Assembly: GCA_031290295.1 (NCBI GenBank)
Contig: JAITNT010000099.1
Coordinates: 1-17,301 of the forward strand
From: Clostridiales bacterium
GTDB taxonomy: Bacteria; Bacillota; Clostridia; Christensenellales; DUVY01
Direction of reading: 5' to 3'
Length of the DNA: 17,301 bases
Under the pieces are notes generated by a model. It was not told the origin of the DNA. It worked only from the letters and a program-made list of their open reading frames with translations, and did no database searches. Below, one piece after another: positions 1,356 through 17,301 of the stretch (positions within the stretch are counted from its first letter, which is position 1; every line of letters starts with the position of its first letter). Made by a program: the position numbers and the translations under genes.

Positions 1356-2162
1356 ATGGCGGAATTAAATCCCTTGATATTGGCGCTTGCCGGAACGGGC
1401 ATAACGTTTGCGGGAACTATTGTCGGGGCGAGCTTGGTTTTTTTTACGCGGAAGGAAATAAATCAGCGATTGCAGAAGCTTTTTATGGGACTGGCGGCGG
1501 GGGTTATGCTGGCGGCGGCGGTATGGTCGCTGCTTATCCCCGCTATAGATTTGAACGCGGACGACCGCGCGCCTTGGCTGCCGGCGGCGGCGGGCTTCCT
1601 TGCGGGCGGCGCAATGATATTCGCGTTTGACAAAATATCCGCCGGAAAGCAAAAAAACAAGCCGAACGGCTTACAAAAAAATACGGACTCCGCGGGCGAG
1701 CCGCGCTTACGCACGTCTAAACTGATTTTCACCGTAACTATGCACAATTTCCCGGAGGGCATGGCGGTGGGTCTTAGCTGCGCCTTAGCGGGTACGCAGG
1801 GCGCGGGCGCGTCGATAGCCTCCGCTATAATGCTTGCGATAGGCGTCGCCGTGCAAAATATCCCCGAAGGCGCGATAATAGCCCTCCCCTTGCGCAGCGG
1901 CGGAAGCTCCAAAAAACGCTCTTTCCTTTACGGCGTGCTTTCCGGCGCGGTGGAGCCGGCAGCGGGGGTGTTCGGCGCCGCGCTGATAATGCTTACCTCG
2001 GCGATACTGCCCTGGATGCTCGCTATCGCCGCGGGCGCTATGATTTATGTGGTAGTAGACGAGTTGGTTCCCTCCGCCCGCGAAAAATACACGAAGGTCG
2101 CGACTGCGGGCGCCATGCTGGGCTTCGTGTTGATGATGATTCTGGACGTAATGTGCGGGTAG
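1356..2162 (+). CDS. ZIP-family divalent metal transporter (GufA/ZupT-like)
   Basis: The 268-residue protein has the ZIP pattern. Three N-terminal hydrophobic helices are followed by a variable charged loop at about residues 94-120. A metal helix carries HNFPEG (130-135), the next carries QNIPEG (167-172), and two or three C-terminal helices contain VVDELVP (D235, E236). HN-PEG and QN-PEG are the paired binuclear metal-site motifs of the GufA-type branch, which imports Zn2+, Mn2+ or Fe2+ across the cytoplasmic membrane. The exact metal cannot be read here; the loop is not His-rich. Length is normal (about 250-270). The ATG has a purine-rich GGGGAAGAAGG just upstream. The gene is monocistronic, flanked by repeat-rich DNA on both sides. 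Confidence 0.93.
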   Translation: MAELNPLILALAGTGITFAGTIVGASLVFFTRKEINQRLQKLFMGLAAGVMLAAAVWSLLIPAIDLNADDRAPWLPAAAGFLAGGAMIFAFDKISAGKQKNKPNGLQKNTDSAGEPRLRTSKLIFTVTMHNFPEGMAVGLSCALAGTQGAGASIASAIMLAIGVAVQNIPEGAIIALPLRSGGSSKKRSFLYGVLSGAVEPAAGVFGAALIMLTSAILPWMLAIAAGAMIYVVVDELVPSAREKYTKVATAGAMLGFVLMMILDVMCG

Positions 2163-7510: not shown

Positions 7511-7802
7511 CGCGGTTTGTACATAGGGAACGGACAAGCGGAGGAAGAACGAGGGAAAAAAAGGGGGGGGGGAAGAGAGCAAGTGAATGATTGGTAGGCG
7601 GCGAAGATGGCAAAAAGAGGGCAAGAGAATTGCATCGGAGCGTTGAAAGCGGCGAAGAGATGTTTCGACTACGCTCAACATGACATTGATTTTGTTTTGT
7701 TTATGGAGTGCGGAAGAACAAGGAGAACCCGTACCGCTAGCGAGCGGAATGACCACGCGAGTAACGTGCTACGGTACACGCCCGGATAGACTAAACCTCT
7801 TT
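7511..7802. other. Repeat-filled intergenic stretch
   Basis: No gene supported. It contains a ten-G run (7563-7572) next to a poly-A patch, the family A copy at 7575-7692, and a small self-complementary patch (about 7732-7785) with GTACCG / CGGTAC as outer arms and CCGCT-AGCG-AGCGG inside. Short ORFs have no ribosome sites and read through repeat DNA. Confidence 0.5.
7575..7692. repeat. Dispersed repeat, family A copy 3 (two-unit mosaic)
   Basis: Unit one, GAGAGCAAGTGAATGATTGG plus TAGGCGGCGAAGA (7575-7607), is followed by unit two starting GAGGGCAAGAGAATTG (7617). Unit two runs into GCGTTGAAAGCGGCGAAGAG and the tail TGTTTCGACTACGCTCAACA TGACA. The same pieces occur at 13326-13435 in the opposite internal order. 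The tail is the kind that yields the familiar spurious peptide 'VMLSVVETS' in annotations. Confidence 0.8.
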
Positions 7803-7905
7803 AAGTCCGACTGAATCGGATTAAGCAAGACAAGTCGCCCGTAAAGGGCGGCTTGTCGCAGCGCCGATTCACGCTTGGTCGGTATATTCGCCGCGTCCGG
7901 GCGGT
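7803..7905. repeat. Structured repeat element S, copy 1
   Basis: CCGAC (7807-7811) pairs with GTCGG (7878-7882), and TGAATCGG (7812-7819) with CCGATTCA (7864-7871), leaving a 6-nt bulge CGCTTG. Inside is a second stem, GACAAGTCGCCC (7829-7840) with GGGCGGCTTGTC (7846-7857), one G-T wobble. A conserved ATTAAGCAAG precedes the inner hairpin and GCGTCCGGGCGGT closes the element 4 nt before the stop codon of the minus-strand gene at 7910. A second copy at 13534-13633 keeps the fold with compensatory changes. Confidence 0.75.
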
Positions 7906-8143: not shown

Positions 8144-8392
8144 ATGAGATTAGATAAATTTCTAAAGCTTAGCCGGATAATTAAGCGGCGCACCGTGGCG
8201 AATCAGGTTTGCGACGGCGGGCGCGTAAAGGTCAACGGGAAGTCAGCAAAGCCCGCGCACACGCTTAAGGAGGGCGATATTATCACTATCGCGTTTGGCG
8301 ACCGCGAAATCTCGGCACGCGTGCTTTCGGTCGACGAGAAGCTTGCGCGCAAAGACCCCAAAGCCTTATATGAAGGAGCGGAATTAGATTGA
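8144..8392 (+). CDS. rqcP: RqcP (YabO) S4-domain ribosome quality control factor
   Basis: This 82-residue protein is almost entirely one S4 RNA-binding domain. It opens MRLDKFLKLSRIIKRRT, continues GGRVKVNGKSAKPAHTLKEGDIITI and ends with a short acidic tail, matching RqcP/YabO in length and order (family about 80-90 residues). In Bacillota RqcP binds stalled 50S subunits with RqcH and helps add C-terminal alanine tails to nascent chains. HslR-type heat-shock S4 proteins are related, but the size and start favour RqcP. The ATG has no Shine-Dalgarno, and the -10 box is 6 nt upstream, so translation is probably leaderless. Its TGA overlaps the TTG of ispDF, linking the two. Confidence 0.88.
   Translation: MRLDKFLKLSRIIKRRTVANQVCDGGRVKVNGKSAKPAHTLKEGDIITIAFGDREISARVLSVDEKLARKDPKALYEGAELD
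8373..8378 (+). promoter_or_regulatory. Ribosome binding site deciding the TTG start of ispDF
   Basis: AAGGAG inside the end of rqcP lies 10 nt before the TTG at 8389-8391, whose TG is shared with the rqcP TGA stop (8390-8392). It supports the TTG as the start, since the frame has no ATG near it. Confidence 0.75.
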
Positions 8393-9534
8393 CGGATTAC
8401 ACCAACCGAACGGTCGCGCTTATACTCGGCGCGGGGAGCGGCTCGCGCGCGGAGCTGGGTTACAATAAGCTGTTATACGAGGCGGGCGGCAAGACCGTCA
8501 TAGAATACACGCTGGAAAAATTCTCGGCGTATCCGGTCGTGCTTGTCGCCGCGCCCGCCGAAATACAGCAGTTCGCAATTATCGCGGCGCGGTACAAGAA
8601 CGTGGAAATAACCGAGGGCGGCGGACAACGCTCGGAATCCGTAAGGCGCGGACTGAAATATATTAAGTCCTGCGATATGGTAATAATTCATGACGGCGCG
8701 CGCCCCAACGTGACTCCTGAAATAATCGCTCAAGCGGTAGACGCCGCCGGCTCGCAGGGCGGCGCGGTGGTTTATGTGCCGTGCACCGACACCGTTAAGG
8801 AAATACTGCCCGACCGGGCGAACACCTTTGACCGCGGACGGCTCATACAGGCGCAAACGCCGCAGGTGTTCGACTACGGCATGATATGCGAGGCTCTCCT
8901 TACGGCGGGCGCGGGCGACTATTCCGACGACTCGCAAATATTCGAGGCCTGCTTCCATAAATGCGCCTACATTACGGGAAGCACGGCTAACTACAAAATA
9001 ACGACTATGGCGGACATTAAACGCTTCACCGCCGAACACACGGGAGGATATGAAATCTTGAGAATAGGTAACGGCTACGACATTCACCGTTTCGCTTTGG
9101 GCCGCAAGCTCATGCTGGGCGGAATAGAGATACCGCATTATGAGGGGCTTACCGGTCATTCGGACGCGGACGCGGTGATACACGCGCTCGCGGACAGCCT
9201 GCTTTCCGCGATAGGCGAACGCGATATCGGGTACTACTTCCCCAGCGCAGACCCGCAATACGCCGATATTTCGGGCGCGGAAATCCTAGCCCGCGTAATG
9301 AAGCTCGTCAGGACGCGCAAGTTTAAGGTGGATAACGTTTCGATAGTAATAATAACCGAACGCCCGCGCATGTCCGAGCATATACTGCCTATGAAACGCA
9401 GCCTTGCCGGTCTGCTCGGAATCGACGGCGACAGCGTAGGCGTCACCGCCAAAACGAACGAGGGCGTGGACACGATAGGCGATCAAAAGGCTCTCGCCGT
9501 ACACGCGGTAAGTCTGCTTACCAAGCTTAATTAA
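8389..9534 (+). CDS. ispDF: IspDF: bifunctional MEP cytidylyltransferase / MEcPP synthase
   Basis: A 381-residue fusion of two non-adjacent steps of the MEP isoprenoid pathway. Residues 1-223 are IspD (2-C-methylerythritol 4-phosphate plus CTP): LGAGSGSR (13-20) with K27, HDGARP (101-106), TDTVK (133-137), QTPQ (156-159) and Lys 203 in NYKITT. Residues 224-381 are IspF (cyclisation to MEcPP): metal ligands D231, H233 and H265, GHSDAD (256-261), D279, and TNE with E358. These equal E. coli IspF D8, H10, H42, D56 and E135 with a constant offset of 223. Oddities: N228 replaces the common His in GHGYD, and GERDIG replaces the usual LGDIG. A Shine-Dalgarno-like GGGAGGA (9042-9048) precedes TTG 9058 at the junction. 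TTG start; the TAA shares its last base with the ktrB ATG. Confidence 0.96.
   Translation: MTDYTNRTVALILGAGSGSRAELGYNKLLYEAGGKTVIEYTLEKFSAYPVVLVAAPAEIQQFAIIAARYKNVEITEGGGQRSESVRRGLKYIKSCDMVIIHDGARPNVTPEIIAQAVDAAGSQGGAVVYVPCTDTVKEILPDRANTFDRGRLIQAQTPQVFDYGMICEALLTAGAGDYSDDSQIFEACFHKCAYITGSTANYKITTMADIKRFTAEHTGGYEILRIGNGYDIHRFALGRKLMLGGIEIPHYEGLTGHSDADAVIHALADSLLSAIGERDIGYYFPSADPQYADISGAEILARVMKLVRTRKFKVDNVSIVIITERPRMSEHILPMKRSLAGLLGIDGDSVGVTAKTNEGVDTIGDQKALAVHAVSLLTKLN
9042..9060 (+). promoter_or_regulatory. Internal Shine-Dalgarno-like site at the IspD/IspF junction
   Basis: GGGAGGA (9042-9048) lies 9 nt before an in-frame TTG (9058-9060) immediately ahead of the first IspF residues RIGNGYDIH. 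It may be a leftover start of an ancestral separate ispF gene, or may still make free IspF. A nearby out-of-frame ATG (9050) stops after three codons. Confidence 0.4.
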
Positions 9535-10925
9535 TGAAATCGGCTTCCGGACGTTCAAGAAAAAGGGTGTTGAAGCCCACACAGGTAATCGTTATCGGCT
9601 TCGCGACGGCGATTCTCGTAGGCGCGTTCCTTTTGTCGTTGCCTATAGCGAACACAAACCGCGAATGGGTGAGCTTCGTAGACGCGTTATTCACCTCGAC
9701 GACGTCCTTGTGCGGCTCGGGGCTTACCGTATACGACACCGGCGCTTTCTTCAATATTTTCGGGCAGATAGTAATTCTTCTGCTGATTCAGATAGGCGGG
9801 CTGGGCGTAATGGCTGTAGCCACGCTCGTTTTTACCCTTATACGCAAAAAGATATCCTACTCCGAACGGCTCATGCTGCAGCAAACCCTGTCCTCGGACG
9901 CGGCGGGCGGCGTAGTAAAGATGACGCGATACCTGCTCGCCTGCTCCGCGATAATAGAGGGCGCGGGCTTCGTCCTGCTGCTGCCGGGCTTTATTATCGA
10001 ATACGGCGCGGCGGGGATTTTTAAGGCTCTTTTTACGGCGGTATCGTCCTTTTGTAACGCGGGCATAGACGTTTGCGGAGCCTCCGTCACGGGCGGCTTC
10101 AGCATATCCCCGCTTGCGGGGAGCGTGTCCGTACTGCTGTCCATGTCCTTCCTCGTAATACTGGGCGGTCTGGGCTTCACCGTTATACTCGACGTCGTGC
10201 GCCGCAGAACCCGTTTCAAAAAATACGCGCTGCATACAAAGCTCGTGCTGATCGCCGCCGCCGTACTGCTAGCGGCGGGCACGCTGTTTTTCCTTGTCGC
10301 CGAATACGACAATCCCGACACCCTGGGCGGCATGAATTTCGGGCAAAAGCTGCTCAACGCGTTCTTCCTTGCCGTCACGCCGCGCACCGCGGGGTTCTCC
10401 GTTTTCCCTCCCGACAGCCTTACGGCGATAAGCAGATTTTTTACTATGTTCCTGATGATAATCGGCGGCAGCCCCGCCTCTACCGCGGGCGGAGTGCGGA
10501 CGACAACGATAGTAATCCTGCTGTTTATAATCGTTTCGGCGGCGCGGGATAAGCGCTCGGTAATAATCGCTAAGCGCAGAATTAACTTCCGAACCGCGAT
10601 GCGCGCCGTAAGCATGCTGTTCTTCGCCGTCGCGCTTATCGTGATAGGCACGCTGGTTCTTTTTGCGGTGGAGGCGGGCAACCCCGACATGGCTAAATAC
10701 TACTCGCTCGAGCATATAATTTACGAGGTTATAGCCGCGCTGAGCACCGCCGGGCTTACGCTCGGAATAACGCCCCATCTGTCCGCGGTAAGCAAGCTTA
10801 CTCTGGCGCTTCTCATGTTCGTAGGCAAGCTCGGACCGCTTACGCTGGGGCTGTTATTTGCAAGCAAGACGGGCGGTATAAAGCCTATAGTTTTATACCC
10901 CGACGCAAACGTGATAGTAGGCTGA
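9534..10925 (+). CDS. ktrB: KtrB-type potassium channel subunit (TrkH/KtrB family)
   Basis: A 463-residue polytopic membrane protein with the fourfold M1-P-M2 layout of the TrkH/Ktr family. The four pore loops end in filter glycines: CGSGL (60-64), NAGI (175-178), TAGF (285-288) and TAGL (405-408). The conserved GGSPASTAGGVRTTT (311-325) lies in the third repeat's M2 gating loop. Length fits KtrB (about 440-460) rather than TrkH (about 480+). It carries K+ in, usually Na+-coupled, when gated by a cytosolic KtrA ring, encoded next. The ATG overlaps the ispDF stop (TAATG) with no ribosome site of its own, implying termination-reinitiation coupling. An exact palindrome CCGTATACGG (10926-10935) follows its stop codon. 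Confidence 0.95.
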   Translation: MKSASGRSRKRVLKPTQVIVIGFATAILVGAFLLSLPIANTNREWVSFVDALFTSTTSLCGSGLTVYDTGAFFNIFGQIVILLLIQIGGLGVMAVATLVFTLIRKKISYSERLMLQQTLSSDAAGGVVKMTRYLLACSAIIEGAGFVLLLPGFIIEYGAAGIFKALFTAVSSFCNAGIDVCGASVTGGFSISPLAGSVSVLLSMSFLVILGGLGFTVILDVVRRRTRFKKYALHTKLVLIAAAVLLAAGTLFFLVAEYDNPDTLGGMNFGQKLLNAFFLAVTPRTAGFSVFPPDSLTAISRFFTMFLMIIGGSPASTAGGVRTTTIVILLFIIVSAARDKRSVIIAKRRINFRTAMRAVSMLFFAVALIVIGTLVLFAVEAGNPDMAKYYSLEHIIYEVIAALSTAGLTLGITPHLSAVSKLTLALLMFVGKLGPLTLGLLFASKTGGIKPIVLYPDANVIVG

Positions 10926-10989: not shown

Positions 10990-11697
10990 ATGCGCAAACC
11001 TAATAAAAAAGACGGTCTTAATATGATAGCGGTAATCGGCTTGGGCGGCTTCGGCTCGGCATTCTGCAAGGCGCTTTACGCGATGGATAAGGAGGTGCTC
11101 GCCGTAGACAAAAGCAACGATTTGGTTACGGAGCATATACCCTTCGCTACGAACGCGGTTTGTACGGACGCGTCCGACGAGAACGTGCTTAAAACTCTGG
11201 GCATAAAAAACTTCGACGTCGTCGCCGTATGCGTGGGCGACGTGGAATCGAGTATTTTTATAACGCTTTTGTGCAAGCAAATGGGCGTGCCGTACATTAT
11301 AGCTAAGGCGAGCAGTCATCTTCACAAAACCGTGCTGGAAAAAATAGGCGCGAACCTCGTGGTTTTTCCCGAGGCGCAAATGGGCGAAAAAATAGCCGCC
11401 TCTATTTTTAACCCGACTATCGTCGAAATAGCCGAGCTGACGCCGGACTTCAAAATCATAGAGATAATCACGCCGGAGAAGTGGGAGAATAAATCCCTTA
11501 TCGAGCTGGATATACGCCGCAAACACAATGTCAATATCATTCTTATCAAGAGCAGCGGCGACAACGTAATACTCAACCCCGCCGGCGAGCAGGTTCTGCA
11601 TAAGAACGACACATTGGTAATTTGCGGCGGCTCACAGCAAATAGCCAAGCTTAGAAGCAAGGCCACGGTGGCTTTTCCCGACGCGGACTTGATATAG
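10990..11697 (+). CDS. ktrA: KtrA-type RCK regulator of potassium uptake
   Basis: A 235-residue soluble protein with two RCK parts. The N-terminal Rossmann domain has GLGGFG (17-22) and an acidic residue at the end of strand 2 (D40), for NAD(H)/ATP/ADP binding. The C-terminal RCK_C domain (about 145-225, PTIVEIAEL to TLVICGG) is a ligand site that binds c-di-AMP in Bacillota KtrA. An octameric ring of this protein gates KtrB. AGGGAGGA ends 6-7 nt before the ATG, the only strong ribosome site inside this operon, fitting the extra dose a ring subunit needs. The gap after ktrB is 64 bp. The first 11 residues, before the Rossmann strand, are a slightly longer lead than usual. Confidence 0.94.
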   Translation: MRKPNKKDGLNMIAVIGLGGFGSAFCKALYAMDKEVLAVDKSNDLVTEHIPFATNAVCTDASDENVLKTLGIKNFDVVAVCVGDVESSIFITLLCKQMGVPYIIAKASSHLHKTVLEKIGANLVVFPEAQMGEKIAASIFNPTIVEIAELTPDFKIIEIITPEKWENKSLIELDIRRKHNVNIILIKSSGDNVILNPAGEQVLHKNDTLVICGGSQQIAKLRSKATVAFPDADLI

Positions 11698-11698
11698 C

Positions 11699-13300
11699 AT
11701 GAAAAAGATATACAAAATAACGGGACTCGATTGCGCGGTATGCGCGCAGGCGGTGGAGGACGAGCTGAAAAAGCTCGCTATGCCGACGTCGGTTTCGTTA
11801 AATTTCGCGACGGGCAAGCTTTATATAGAAACGGACGCGTCCGACGCCGACGCGCTGTACGCCGAAATACTTGCCGCCGCGCGCGCCTGCGAGCCGGAGG
11901 TCGCCCTCGTCGATACGGCGAGCGGTCAATTGTGCGAGGATGCGGTAAAAAAATCCGTGTTTAACGTTCCCAACCTTATCCGCCTTATAGGCGCGGCGGT
12001 TTTTTTGGTGATGTTCGTATTCGACGCGCTCGAGGAAAGCGGCTTGTTCGTACCTAAGTCCGAGGACGTTTATACCGTTCTTTCTATAACGCTGTTCGCG
12101 GCGGCCTTCGTCATGATTGCCCACAGCGTTATTTACAAGTTCCTGTCAAATATTCTCAAGTTGCGGTTTTTGGACGAAAACTTCCTGATGATGCTCGCCG
12201 CGATAGTCGCTTTTGTAATGGGCGATTACCCGGAGGGCGCGGCGATAATGCTGTTTTATCAGGTGGGTGAATTCTTCCAAAAGCTCGCTATCACCCGCAG
12301 CCGTCTTTCCATTCAAAGGCTCGTCGCTCAAAAGTCGAACGCCCACAACGCAAATACCGCGCTGTCGCCGGACACCGGCGACATAACCGAGCAGGTGGAA
12401 GCCGCCGTTAATAAAAAAGCGAAAAGCGAGCAATTCATAACTAAATTTTCCCGCGTATACACGCCAGCGATGCTCGGAATCGCCGTAATAATAGGCGCGC
12501 TCTTGCCGCTTTTTTCGGGCGAAAATCATCTGAACTGGGGCTATTGGATTCATATCGCGCTAACCTTTTTGATAGTGGCGTGCCCGTGCGCCTTGGTGCT
12601 TTCCATTCCGATGTGCTTCTTCGGCGGCGTAGGCGCGGCGTCGCGGCTCGGAATACTGTTTAAGGGGTCAAACTACCTCGAGGCGCTTGCGCGTCCGGAA
12701 AGCATATTCTTCGGCGACGTTTTAGGCGAGCACGCCTCCGCCGACATACGCGCCCTAAAGACTCTCGGCATCAAAAAAACCGCGTTCCTTACGGGCGGCA
12801 CTTCCGCGGACGCCGAGGCCGAGCTAAGGCGCGCGGACATCGACGAGGCTCACGCCGACTGCAGACCCGAGGACAAAATGGGGCTTATCCTCAAGCATTC
12901 TAAGTCGGGCAAAACGGTCTTTGCGGGCAAGGACACAAGCGACGTACTCGCTCTGTCCGCCGCCGACGTGGGAATAGCCTTCGGCAACGCGGGAACCGAC
13001 GAGGCGATAGAAGCCGCCGACGTAGTATTGATGACCGACGAGATATCCAAAATTTACACCGCCGTCAAAATCGCCCGCCGCACCCGCGCCCTTGTGGCAA
13101 TTAACATCGGCATAGTTATGGTGATTAAGGTACTCATGCTTGTGCTGTCCTTCCTCATGCCGGACTCCGGCTCGTTAGTCCTTGCCGAGGTAGCCGACGT
13201 AGGCGCCGCCATAATAGCGATTTTTATAGCCCGCACCGTTCTGCGCTATAATCCTAAGCCCCCTGCGGCTGCGGACTGCCGCGGTCACGGGCGGGGGTAA
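11699..13300 (+). CDS. Catalytically stripped P1B-2 (Zn/Cd/Pb) ATPase-like membrane protein
   Basis: An intact 533-codon frame that aligns end to end with Zn/Cd ATPases except for two large in-frame gaps. Present: a heavy-metal domain with GLDCAVC (C12, C15); two leading helices (about 92-148); LDENFLMML to GDYPEGAAIMLFYQVGEFFQ (158-194); the metal helix CPC (295-297); N469 and K477 in the next-to-last helix; and D500 in the last. Missing: nearly all of the actuator domain with its TGE loop (join near 212-225), and the DKTGT phosphorylation site with the whole nucleotide-binding domain (join near 333). In the remaining P-domain TGD is TGG (365-367) and GDGxND is GKDTSD (410-415). It should not hydrolyse ATP by the normal cycle. 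It starts 1 nt after the ktrA stop without a ribosome site. It may be a metal channel, sensor or buffer; family lengths are from memory. Confidence 0.9.
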   Translation: MKKIYKITGLDCAVCAQAVEDELKKLAMPTSVSLNFATGKLYIETDASDADALYAEILAAARACEPEVALVDTASGQLCEDAVKKSVFNVPNLIRLIGAAVFLVMFVFDALEESGLFVPKSEDVYTVLSITLFAAAFVMIAHSVIYKFLSNILKLRFLDENFLMMLAAIVAFVMGDYPEGAAIMLFYQVGEFFQKLAITRSRLSIQRLVAQKSNAHNANTALSPDTGDITEQVEAAVNKKAKSEQFITKFSRVYTPAMLGIAVIIGALLPLFSGENHLNWGYWIHIALTFLIVACPCALVLSIPMCFFGGVGAASRLGILFKGSNYLEALARPESIFFGDVLGEHASADIRALKTLGIKKTAFLTGGTSADAEAELRRADIDEAHADCRPEDKMGLILKHSKSGKTVFAGKDTSDVLALSAADVGIAFGNAGTDEAIEAADVVLMTDEISKIYTAVKIARRTRALVAINIGIVMVIKVLMLVLSFLMPDSGSLVLAEVADVGAAIIAIFIARTVLRYNPKPPAAADCRGHGRG

Positions 13301-13325
13301 GGAGGAAAAATGTCTAATGACAATA

Positions 13326-13435
13326 GAGGGCAAGTGAATTGTATCGGGGCGTTGAAAGCGGCGAAGCGGGGAAAGAGGACAAGTAATTGTCTTAGCAAGC
13401 GGCGAAGAGATGTTTCGACTGCGCTCAACATGACA
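13326..13435. repeat. Dispersed repeat, family A copy 4 (two-unit mosaic)
   Basis: Unit one starts GAGGGCAAGTGAATTG and includes GCGTTGAAAGCGGCGAAG (13326-13366). Unit two starts GAGGACAAGTAATTG (13375) and ends in AAGCGGCGAAGAG plus the tail TGTTTCGACTGCGCTCAACA TGACA. The internal order of unit types is swapped compared with 7575-7692, while the shared tail stays at the same end. Confidence 0.8.
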
Positions 13436-13533
13436 TGGGCTTGTTTTATTCGTATTCGGTACGGGTGGCGCGGTGATAATGCAAATAAAACGGAGCATAG
13501 CAAAATCGCATTTTTGCGGAGCGACCCCGTTGA
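13436..13533. other. Short non-coding stretch between repeats
   Basis: Contains a degenerate piece of the GGTACGGGT repeat tail (about 13459) also seen at 1063 and 2254, and a weak inverted repeat GCAAAA / TTTTGC (about 13500-13517). No gene or clear terminator seen. Confidence 0.35.
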
Positions 13534-13633
13534 AAGTCCGACTGAATGCGATTAAGCAAGCAAGGCGCTAGCCGCAGCGCAGCGCGCATTCACGTTTGGT
13601 CGGTTCTCTTGCGCGCATTCGCGTCCGGGCGGT
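13534..13633. repeat. Structured repeat element S, copy 2
   Basis: CCGAC (13538-13542) pairs with GTCGG (13599-13603), and TGAATGCG (13543-13550) with CGCATTCA (13585-13592), with a 6-nt bulge CGTTTG. Compared with copy 1 two adjacent pairs of the stem are exchanged on both sides (TCGG/CCGA to TGCG/CGCA). ATTAAGCAAG follows the stem as in copy 1. The inner hairpin is shorter (GCGCT 13565-13569 with AGCGC 13576-13580). GCGTCCGGGCGGT ends 4 nt before the histidine kinase stop codon. Confidence 0.75.
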
Positions 13634-13637
13634 TTCG

Positions 13638-14846
13638 TCACAATATTACGCTGAACGTAATAGCGGATTCATTATCCGTTTTGACGGTTATTTTCCAGTT
13701 GTTGCGTTTAGCGAGCGCCTCCAAAATGGATAAGCCTAAGCCGGAGCCTACGCTTTCGGCGCGGGCACCGTCGCTTCTGTAAAAGCGCTCGAACAGAAGC
13801 TTGATTTCCTCCTCTTTTATTGCGCCGCCCGTATTAAAGACGGAGAACGCGGGATGCGCGCCCTGCTTGACAAGCGCGGCTTTGATCGTGCCGTTAGAGT
13901 CGGAGTGTTTTATAGCGTTGTCGCAAAGTATCGAAATCATATTGCTTATTTCGCGCGGACTTCCCGTATAGCTTAAATTCGGGCAGACAGCGTAAGTGAA
14001 CGTTTTACCGTTTTCAAAGGCGACGCTTTCAAACGACAGAATTTCCGACAAGACGGTCTTGGATAAATCAAAGCTTACGTTGCTCTTAGGCGCGGTATCC
14101 TCGTCTATTTTTGAAAGCGACAGCAGATCGGAAACAAGCGCGCTCATTTTGTCCGTTTGCGATTTTATGTCCGAAATCCATTTACTCATGGCAGGGGACG
14201 CCGTTTCTTCATTAAGCTGTTTTTCTAAAAGCTCGGTTCCGGCAGAGATAATCGTAAGCGGCGTTTTTAATTCGTGGCTCGCGTCGGAAATAAAACGCTT
14301 TTGTTTTTTGAACGCTTCCGCGGTGGGCTTGATCACCCAGTAGGACAGCAACCAGACGACGCCGAACAAAACCACGGCGCCGACTATACCGGCAAGCAAT
14401 ACCGTAAGCAGCAGCTCGCGGAACATGGAGTTTTCCACGCTGTTATCGATAACCGCGATTATTTGCCCGTCCGGAATAACCCTGACGACAAAAAGCATAT
14501 CGCCTACGGCACCCTGCTCGGCGCCGCTCTCGATAATATCGGAGGCGTAATTTTCAATATCCTCGACGGTATAGAAGTCGGAGTTGAATTTTGCCTCCTT
14601 TATGTTAAATTCGGCGTCAAGCTTGATAATAAAGCTGCGCACCCGATCGAACTGTTCGCCTTGCTGCGGCTTCTCGTCCTTTGCGGAGCGGGTATATTCG
14701 TCCGCTATCATATACAAAAGCTTGAAGCTGCGCGAGCGGTTGCCGGAGTAAGTGCTTATCAAAATCGCGCTGCAAAATACCGCGACAATGATTATCACGA
14801 TCGCCATAGTGGCGCATACGAATTGTAATCTCGCTTTTTTAATCAC
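13638..14846 (-). CDS. Sensor histidine kinase of a two-component system
   Basis: A 402-residue membrane kinase. A first transmembrane helix (about 9-31), a compact extracytoplasmic sensor region (32-143) and a second helix (about 144-170) lead into the kinase core. The core has the H-box FISDASHELKTPLTI with phospho-accepting His 191, N-box CDNAIKHS with Asn 310, G1-like FNTGGAI (337-343), FERFYRSDG (352-360) and G2 GSGLGLSI (367-374). It autophosphorylates and passes phosphate to the regulator encoded just upstream. The start is a GTG at 14846-14844, overlapping the regulator's end by 8 bp (GTGATTAA), with GGAG upstream, so the pair is coupled. The sensor domain is not one I recognise, so the signal is unknown. 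Element S begins 4 nt after the stop. Confidence 0.94.
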   Translation of the reverse strand: MIKKARLQFVCATMAIVIIIVAVFCSAILISTYSGNRSRSFKLLYMIADEYTRSAKDEKPQQGEQFDRVRSFIIKLDAEFNIKEAKFNSDFYTVEDIENYASDIIESGAEQGAVGDMLFVVRVIPDGQIIAVIDNSVENSMFRELLLTVLLAGIVGAVVLFGVVWLLSYWVIKPTAEAFKKQKRFISDASHELKTPLTIISAGTELLEKQLNEETASPAMSKWISDIKSQTDKMSALVSDLLSLSKIDEDTAPKSNVSFDLSKTVLSEILSFESVAFENGKTFTYAVCPNLSYTGSPREISNMISILCDNAIKHSDSNGTIKAALVKQGAHPAFSVFNTGGAIKEEEIKLLFERFYRSDGARAESVGSGLGLSILEALAKRNNWKITVKTDNESAITFSVIL

Positions 14847-15713: not shown

Positions 15714-17301
15714 ATGAAGCATTATTCAATACGCACGCTTATCGTTTCGCTCGTGCTCGTTTTGGCAATGGCGTTTACCGTTGCGGGTTGTACCTTTGGA
15801 CCCGATAACGGCGGCGGCGGCCCGAACGACGGCGACGGAAGCACCGATCAAAGCATACCGACGCCGGAGATGCCGGATATCGACGTTATAGCGCCGGAAA
15901 CCTCGCAACCCGAGGCGGACGACGGCGACCTGCTCGGGGACGCGGATACAAGCGGCGCCGACGCCGTTATTACCTTGACCGGCGCGTCGGCGGAATTTAC
16001 GGGCAGTAACGTAAAGGTTGTGGAGAGCGATATTTACGGTACGATCGTCGAGATAAGCAAAAGCGGAACCTACGTCGTGCAGGGAACGTTGACGCAGGGC
16101 TTCGTCGCAGTATCAAAAAAGGAGCTGACGGTCACGATTATTCTTAACGGCGTAAATATATACTGCTCAAATTACGCGGCAATTACCTGTCTGAAGAGAT
16201 CCGCCGTCACAATCGAGCTTGCGGAAAACTCGACTAATTACCTGACGGACGGCGCGGAATATTACGATAACGCGGAGGACAGATACGATGAGGACGAAAC
16301 GCCGAACGCGGCTCTGCTTATCCGTACCGATCTGACTATACGGGGTTCGGGCAAATTAATCGTTAACGGCAATTGCAACAACGGAATAGGCAGCCGCGCA
16401 AATCTTACGATAGAGGGCGGCGATATTTCCGTTAACGCCGTAAACAACGCGCTTAAAGGCAATGATTCTATTACGATAAGCGGCGGCACGCTTACGCTTA
16501 TCTCTTCAAGCGACGGGATTAAATCGGAGGACGACGACGCTTTGGGCGAGGTCGGAGATATAAACATAACGGGCGGCACCTTAGTTATCGCCGCCGTGAA
16601 CGACGCCGTGCAAGCCGCCGCAAACCTTTCGGTTGCAAACGCCGCGCTGAAGCTGAAAACGGGAGGCGGGAGCGCCGCCGCCGCGACGAGCGCAAGCGCC
16701 AAAGGGTTAAAGGCGACTATCGGTTTGACTGTCGTTTCCGGCGATATCGATATCGACTCGAACGACGACAGCCTGCACGCCGTTACGGTAACGATAGAGG
16801 GCGGAGCCTTGACATGCGCCAGCGGCGACGACGGTATACACGCCGACGAAACGCTTACTGTTAACGGCGGCACTATTAATATAAGCAAAAGCTACGAGGG
16901 ATTGGAGGCGAAGGACATCGGTCTGAACGGCGGTTCGGTAAGGGTAAAATCTACGGACGACGGAGTCAATATATCGGGCGGCAAGGATTCCTCCGCGACG
17001 AACAGACCGGGTCAGGGCGGAGCCCGTCCGGGGCAGCCTAGCGCAGGTTCGACAGCGGCAAGCGGCACACTCACGGTAACCGGCGGAATTTATTATGTAG
17101 ATGCAAGCGGAGACGGGCTTGACTCTAACGGAAGCATCGTCATGAGCGGCGGTACGGTAATCGTGTTCGGTCCCACCTCCGGCGGCGACGCCGCTATCGA
17201 CTATGACGGAACCTTCAAAATAACCGGCGGCACGCTGATTTCCCTGGGCAGCTCCGGTATGGCGCAACAGCCCGGGTCAACGTCGACGCAATATTCCTTC
17301 C
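15714..17301 (+). CDS. Cthe_2159-like beta-helix lipoprotein (carbohydrate-binding type), partial
   Basis: The frame opens at ATG 15714, with GGAGGG about 7 nt upstream, and runs to the window edge (529 codons), so the C-terminus is missing. Residues 1-26 are a lipoprotein signal with lipobox VAGC and lipidated Cys 26, followed by an acidic Gly/Asp/Pro linker. From about residue 80 the pattern SKSGTYVVQGTL, VTIILNGVNIYC, NALKGNDSITISGGTL, SSDGIKSEDDD and GDDGIHADETLTVNGGT repeats. These are rungs of the Cthe_2159 family, right-handed beta-helix surface proteins known to bind Ca2+ and acidic polysaccharide (polygalacturonate). Residues about 423-450 form a PGQGG-type flexible insert between rungs. 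It probably sits on the cell surface. Divergent from the two-component genes and sharing their operator, it is a likely target of that system. Confidence 0.9.
   Translation, partial: MKHYSIRTLIVSLVLVLAMAFTVAGCTFGPDNGGGGPNDGDGSTDQSIPTPEMPDIDVIAPETSQPEADDGDLLGDADTSGADAVITLTGASAEFTGSNVKVVESDIYGTIVEISKSGTYVVQGTLTQGFVAVSKKELTVTIILNGVNIYCSNYAAITCLKRSAVTIELAENSTNYLTDGAEYYDNAEDRYDEDETPNAALLIRTDLTIRGSGKLIVNGNCNNGIGSRANLTIEGGDISVNAVNNALKGNDSITISGGTLTLISSSDGIKSEDDDALGEVGDINITGGTLVIAAVNDAVQAAANLSVANAALKLKTGGGSAAAATSASAKGLKATIGLTVVSGDIDIDSNDDSLHAVTVTIEGGALTCASGDDGIHADETLTVNGGTINISKSYEGLEAKDIGLNGGSVRVKSTDDGVNISGGKDSSATNRPGQGGARPGQPSAGSTAASGTLTVTGGIYYVDASGDGLDSNGSIVMSGGTVIVFGPTSGGDAAIDYDGTFKITGGTLISLGSSGMAQQPGSTSTQYSF

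Follow-up and report, generated by a model that had tools for sequence, protein, structure and literature searches.

A P1B-2 ATPase homologue that keeps the metal path and lacks the ATP engine, encoded directly after ktrA in an uncultured bacterium

Tight coupling of ATP to transport is exemplified in textbooks by the P-type pumps, and the locus described here raises the question of what a member of this family might be once its ATP engine is gone and its metal path is still in place. The protein, P0001, is encoded in a window (the whole stretch of DNA analysed, 17301 nucleotides) and is known as one sequence from one MAG of an uncultured bacterium, 62% complete and in 306 contigs. A preliminary description of this DNA had reported an uninterrupted 533-codon frame with metal motifs but without TGE, DKTGT and the nucleotide-binding (N) domain, and with TGG and GKDTSD in place of catalytic motifs. 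Both halves of that description are borne out, the first by the frame itself and by the presence of C12xxC15, CPC (295–297), N469, K477 and D500, and the second by alignment and Pfam.

The gene and its two in-frame deletions

The frame at 11699–13300 (+) is open from ATG to stop over 533 codons, with no internal stop or frameshift, and is the last in the gene order S4, ispDF, ktrB, ktrA and the P0001 gene (Table 1). In all five segments of P0001 the codon-use score is higher in frame than out of frame, and the scores are near those of ktrA, ktrB and ispDF, three genes that were themselves in the training set. Scans for terminators and promoters found about as many as in shuffled sequences (6 against a mean of 4.7 and 12 against a mean of 8.8).

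Table 1. Coordinates in the window of the operon genes and of the parts of P0001
Feature	Position	Strand	Evidence
S4-domain protein gene, first gene of likely operon	8144..8392	+	PF01479 and ORF
ispDF, isoprenoid synthesis, second gene of likely operon	8389..9534	+	PF01128 and PF02542
ktrB-type K+ channel subunit, TrkH family	9534..10925	+	PF02386
ktrA-type regulatory subunit	10990..11697	+	PF02254 (TrkA_N), PF02080 (TrkA_C)
Engine-less P1B-2 ATPase homologue P0001, 533 aa	11699..13300	+	ORF, Pfam/NCBIfam profiles, alignments
HMA metal-binding domain, residues 1–75	11699..11923	+	PF00403; C12xxC15 at 11732–11743
Lead-in helices and M1–M2, residues 76–215	11924..12343	+	Helices in model; N161, M164, E179, Y187, E191
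Actuator-domain deletion junction, residues 213–228, TGE lost	12335..12382	+	P0002 215–286 missing
M3–M4 with CPC motif (12581–12589), residues 229–338	12383..12712	+	Alignments
DKTGT and N-domain deletion junction, F338|G339	12710..12715	+	P0002 413–524 missing; breaks in tblastn with relatives
P-domain remnant, residues 339–455	12713..13063	+	TGG at 12791–12799, GKDTSD at 12926–12943
M5–M6, residues 456–516	13064..13246	+	N469, K477 (13127–13129), D500 (13196–13198)

By its residues P0001 is a P1B-2 (ZntA/CadA-type) homologue by descent. It carries the marks of this group, i.e. CPC in M4 (C295–C297), N(x)7K in M5 (N469/K477) and DxG in M6 (D500/G502), and in an unrooted 22-sequence tree it pairs with P0002, the branch between this pair and all other sequences having a support of 100. 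P0002, a full-length protein of 725 aa, is the nearest relative among the matches listed, with 56% identity in the alignment. Pairwise alignment with P0002 places two deletions in P0001, both of which keep the reading frame and have nothing inserted: residues 215–286 of P0002 (71 aa), which make up the actuator (A) domain with TGE, and residues 413–524 (111 aa), which comprise the phosphorylation loop with DKTGT and the N domain. Most of the matches listed when P0001 was compared with relatives by tblastn break close to these places, ending near residues 210–214 and 339–343 and starting near 226–229 and 335–338; the exceptions include a match over 1–260 in one genome of the family (G002) and several that extend to 350–418.

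Profile searches give the same picture. PF00403 (HMA) matches P0001 with 31.3 bits against a cut-off of 24.8, PF00122 is matched only in its second half, starting at position 93 of the 181 in the profile, and PF00702 found no match in the Pfam search, whereas in P0002 PF00702 is complete and PF00122 starts at position 15. Among the NCBIfam models only the general profile TIGR01494 exceeds its cut-off (76.2 against 62.3 bits); the cadmium P1B subfamily profile TIGR01512 (198.5 bits, cut-off 313.5) and the P1B profile TIGR01525 (201.7 bits, cut-off 346.25) both fall below theirs. An AF2 model of P0001, derived from 46 aligned sequences that are mostly full-length and carrying no information on activity, has a mean pLDDT of 84.4 and a pTM of 0.75, with pLDDT of 90–96 at residues 1–70, 90–95 at 331–410 and below 50 at 213–225. 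In this model the P-domain strand that precedes DKTGT (335–338) is still there and runs straight into the next P-domain segment, so that a Rossmann core can, as modelled, still form. Structure searches with the model recover P-type ATPases, as the sequence predicts, a result with no bearing on function.

Residues lost, residues kept and the rates at which they change

The losses extend beyond the two deletions. In the P domain TGG (365–367) replaces TGD and GKDTSD (410–415) replaces G[D/E]GxND, so that D367, G412 and N414, invariant in 212 of 212 relatives, are all lost; position 411, acidic in the relatives (D in 201, E in 11), is K, and I413, which is I in 194 of the 212, is T. A further loss is that of K343, at a position next to the deletion junction that holds K in 211 of 212 relatives. 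T365, G366, P390, K393, G410 and D415 are retained. Since P0001 is without the DKTGT aspartate and the TGE loop, there is no site left for the known phosphorylation cycle, and we conclude from these losses that the protein cannot be an ATP-driven pump.

The metal path, by contrast, is retained. We took the roles of path residues in ZntA from PMC6305203, which covers E184/E214/D348, M187/F210, C392/C394/D714, E202 and K693, and placed them on P0001 by alignment. They correspond to N161/E191/T248, M164/Y187, C295/C297/D500, E179 and K477 respectively, and all ten are the commonest residue of the relatives. Nine of them each occur in at least 207 of the 211–213 relatives (T248 in 210 of 213), and the tenth, N161, occurs in 183 of 212; HMA4 likewise has N at the ZntA E184 position. 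The HMA cysteines are also the commonest residues (C12 in 142 of 144 relatives, C15 in 137 of 142). Beside the CPC motif, residue 294 is S in 211 of 213 relatives and A in P0001. That the ATP engine has gone while the metal path has stayed is well supported.

We compared how far each part has been held by counting losses at conserved columns. At P-domain columns (345–455) that are at least 99% invariant, P0001 has lost 4 of 18, against a maximum of two in any of 212 relatives, and at columns at least 95% conserved it has lost 11 of 34 (P0002 5), which none of the 212 equals. In the membrane part, with the A junction left out, the losses are 1 of 41 at the 99% level, where 19 of 212 relatives have lost as many or more, and 9 of 69 at the 95% level (P0002 6), where one of 211 relatives reaches that number; with the junction included the latter figure becomes 12 of 76, above every one of the 211. 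Two membrane losses in the invariant-column test, G213 and G214, sit at the A-domain junction. The contrast between membrane and P parts at invariant columns is not significant (Fisher p 0.057 to 0.091). In P0001 the membrane part was constrained to about the same degree as in P0002, although within the family it ranks among the loosest.

Lineage-specific changes were counted with nine outgroups, in columns where at least five of the nine agreed. Changes found only in P0001 versus only in P0002 numbered 4 versus 7 in the HMA domain and 8 versus 2, 5 versus 0, 5 versus 10 and 4 versus 6 in the membrane parts, a total of 26 versus 25, whereas the P remnant had 23 versus 6 (p=0.002). The contrast between the two regions gives a Fisher p of 0.017, and of 0.44 when at least eight of nine outgroups must agree (11 versus 6 for HMA plus membrane and 14 versus 3 for P). 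With the topology of a 22-tip tree fixed and the P remnant taken without its junction, ML branch lengths were 0.368 for P0001 versus 0.342 for P0002 over HMA plus membrane (HMA 0.386 versus 0.396; membrane 0.363 versus 0.333), but 0.919 versus 0.212 in the P remnant, which is approximately four times faster. Bootstrapping (40 replicates each) gave an ln ratio of −0.01 (2.5–97.5%, −0.48 to 0.35) for HMA plus membrane and 1.44 (0.51 to 2.59) for P. When 111 columns were drawn at random 100 times, the ln ratio had its 97.5th percentile at 1.48, about equal to the observed 1.47, and its maximum at 1.77, and none of the draws attained the observed share of tree length. In a 127-tip tree, where the ranking covers the 109 tips with a membrane branch of at least 0.1, P0001 ranks third for the ratio of P to membrane rate (0.97, against a mean of −0.03 and an sd of 0.49), and the two sequences that exceed it, L076 and L020, have all motifs intact.

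These data clearly point to release of the catalytic part from constraint. The imbalance in rates, unusual but not unique, would be hard to obtain from the drift of a dead gene and argues against plain decay. The preliminary description had proposed repurposing rather than decay, and the domain-selective rates favour that proposal; it is unproved, coming from one sequence, and the other tests (the rank among 109 tips and the conserved columns) are weaker.

Relatives and genomic setting

As a check on repurposing, the preliminary description had pointed to homologues with the same two deletions, and here the outcome went against it: none beyond P0001 was present among the matches listed. In a protein search with P0001, only P0001 itself had the double-deletion form in the best 120 of 7994 matches. 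A length-restricted search with a 341-aa query (residues 130–470), chosen so that the length filter excludes most full-length pumps, returned only P0001 with both deletions in the best 120 of 3494 matches (7997 candidates scored), and there was no further case among the matches listed in the 41 and 297 genomes searched with P0001 (up to four candidates scored per genome in the latter) or in the 391 genomes of the class searched with P0121 (up to three per genome).

Three P1B-2 proteins of a rare form that surfaced in the length-restricted searches, P0121 (542 aa), P0122 (533 aa) and P0296 (521 aa), resemble P0001 in size and in missing the whole N domain in frame. Unlike P0001, which has lost the catalytic motifs and keeps HMA, they retain TGES, DKTGT, TGD or SGD, and GDGxND, and have no Pfam HMA match. 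P0121, whose AF2 model has a mean pLDDT of 80.0, lies on a 109-kb contig and is 78% identical with P0122, and P0296 is more distant. The likeness of P0121 and P0122 is of the same degree in the membrane (0.81) and P (0.83) parts, so the N-domain-less architecture has been maintained at least between two lineages; among the matches listed in 391 genomes of the class (P0121 as query, up to three scored per genome) there was no N-domain-less form. That these three proteins might use another phosphoryl donor is speculation. Loss of the N domain has, to judge from these alignments, happened in the family apart from P0001, which with its catalytic residues also gone would be either a further step or an independent case. 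Smaller in-frame losses were seen in otherwise intact P1B-2 proteins, affecting parts of the A domain in P0131, P0203 and P0216 and part of the N domain in P0125 and P0342, and may be real variants, decay or assembly effects. One P1B-2 fragment, P0184, has an internal tandem duplication that reaches from the A-domain end as far as the CPC region, possibly an assembly effect.

The P0001 gene sits outside the ArsR-plus-pump setting of most of its relatives' loci. Of 87 relatives' loci (two of which, L068 and L069, come from one MAG), 60 have an ArsR-like tblastn match on the same strand no more than 400 nt upstream, whereas the P0001 gene, examined as the 88th locus by the same criterion, has none. 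Full-length P1B-2 genes of 710–756 aa are present elsewhere in four of five other genomes of the family (G001, G002, G003 and G005), with an ArsR-family gene (PF01022) directly upstream of the pump in G001, G003 and G005; no P1B-2 gene was seen in G004, a genome 73% complete. The MAG that encodes P0001 has one weak ArsR-like match, on another contig, as well as one CDF exporter and five other PF00122 loci, and as it is 62% complete, a normal ZntA may exist in it unseen. On the same contig, approximately 9 kb upstream of the P0001 gene, there is a ZIP-family (PF02535) metal transporter gene at window positions 1356–2162 (+).

Coupling to ktrA and a role in potassium homeostasis had also been suggested. 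ktrA ends at 11697 and the ATG of P0001 is at 11699, a gap of 1 nt, and by eye there is no Shine-Dalgarno-like stretch before this ATG, so translation is probably coupled to that of ktrA. The link to potassium is weak. No P1B gene follows ktrA in any of the five other family genomes (G001–G005): the ispDF–ktrB–ktrA order recurs in G003 without one, and in G001, G003 and G005 the gene after ktrA is convergent. In the fetched flanks of the 80 named loci there was no ktrA tblastn match (E 1e-8); one of these loci, L019, has a KtrB-like gene. A specific K+ role for P0001 is only a suggestion from gene position. A full-length copy at the same locus in close relatives had been named beforehand as a finding that would overturn repurposing; none was seen, the five family genomes having no P1B gene there.

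What P0001 may be

The reading that we tentatively prefer, at slightly under an even chance, is that P0001 is a non-pumping Zn2+/Cd2+-type metal-binding membrane protein, i.e. a pseudo-pump. Its metal-handling part would have stayed under near-normal constraint after release of the catalytic part, as the rates suggest. An ion could reach the C295/C297/D500 site either from the HMA domain or through the cytosolic funnel (E191), and K477 could balance the charge of D500. With no phosphorylation cycle the site would only bind the ion or let it move passively along its gradient. What remains of the P domain, its Rossmann core, may serve as a scaffold or a surface for docking, and the protein would probably be translated with KtrAB through coupling, rather than in response to metal. 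Ions of the Zn2+/Cd2+ type would be bound at the HMA and CPC/D500 sites, and metal sensing, metal buffering and slow passive conduction are all candidate roles. A bolder version, in which the pump fold has become an ATP-independent Zn/Cd channel or sensor wired into the K+-channel operon, seems unlikely.

The most serious rival is that P0001 is a decaying pseudogene whose two large deletions kept frame by chance and which is now drifting, a substantial possibility that we hold somewhat less probable. It fits a single copy with no second such protein among the matches listed, the several invariant residues that are gone, a count of membrane losses at 95% columns that is high among the relatives and the absence of an adjoining ArsR-like gene, and sporadic in-frame domain deletions do occur in otherwise intact homologues such as P0131, P0203 and P0216. 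Drift should nevertheless strike the membrane and P parts equally, which is at odds with 26 versus 25 changes in one and 23 versus 6 in the other, and with branches of 0.37 versus 0.34 for HMA/membrane against 0.92 versus 0.21 for P; nor is there any stop or frameshift, and when 120 random substitutions were simulated on the P0001 gene DNA, giving approximately 17 changes in residues 339–455, only 6% of 500 runs stayed free of stops.

The same 1-nt gap, with the lack of an own Shine-Dalgarno-like stretch (by eye) and the probable co-translation that these imply, would suit a regulatory partner of the KtrAB channel, whose metal binding or P-domain remnant influences KtrA; as the ktrA–P1B pair is found in none of the five other family genomes and none of the 80 named loci has a ktrA match in its flanks, we regard this as quite improbable. 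Assembly or binning could have cut two stretches out of a full-length gene, and the fragmented and incomplete state of the MAG (306 contigs, 62%) would be in keeping with this, but the gene is inside its contig, both joins are in frame, and D367, G412 and N414 are substituted at some distance from the joins, neither of which would create such changes, making an artefact very improbable. Hardly credible is a split enzyme, with A and N domains supplied in trans by another gene. The five other PF00122 loci could be thought to provide them, yet a search of the 62%-complete genome with P0002 found no separate ZntA-like piece over residues 215–306 or 414–537, the sole matches over those ranges lying within other pumps, and the catalytic residues of the P domain would be missing all the same.

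Compared with ZntA and CadA, the P1B-2 Zn2+/Cd2+/Pb2+ ATPases (PDB 4umv and 4umw), P0001 is without TGE, DKTGT, the N domain, TGD and GDGxND. SPCA2 is a full pump, and pumping is not known to be needed for its partner role toward Orai1. This mammalian Golgi Ca2+ P-type pump is described as a channel partner in PMC3696057; metal, organism and partner all differ from those of P0001, and the likeness is that of a P-type pump with a possible partner role toward a channel. Pseudoenzymes are defined, in PMC10211241, by a lack of conserved catalytic motifs, a loss that P0001 has in common with them. No paper on a P1B pseudo-pump or on an engine-less or N-domain-less P1B protein was found by title or abstract opening among the open-access papers searched. 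If the pseudo-pump reading is true, an ion path is under selection without its engine and is useful on its own, and P0001 is a small engine-free construct for asking whether an uncoupled ZntA path leaks metal; if the gene is decaying, it cautions that domain-clean in-frame deletions can mimic repurposing.

Two other features of the contig were observed. A dispersed modular intergenic repeat occupies window positions 13310–13640 and parts of 7568–7905, 952–1036 and 2162–2460, with at least 97 matches to 13300–13640 in the same genome, self included (40 of 238 candidates scored); an 81-aa ORF at 13310–13555 lies inside this repeat and is probably not a gene. Towards the contig end, an open-ended frame of 529 aa (15714–17300, +) has, by eye, a lipoprotein-like start and repeats, and runs off the contig.
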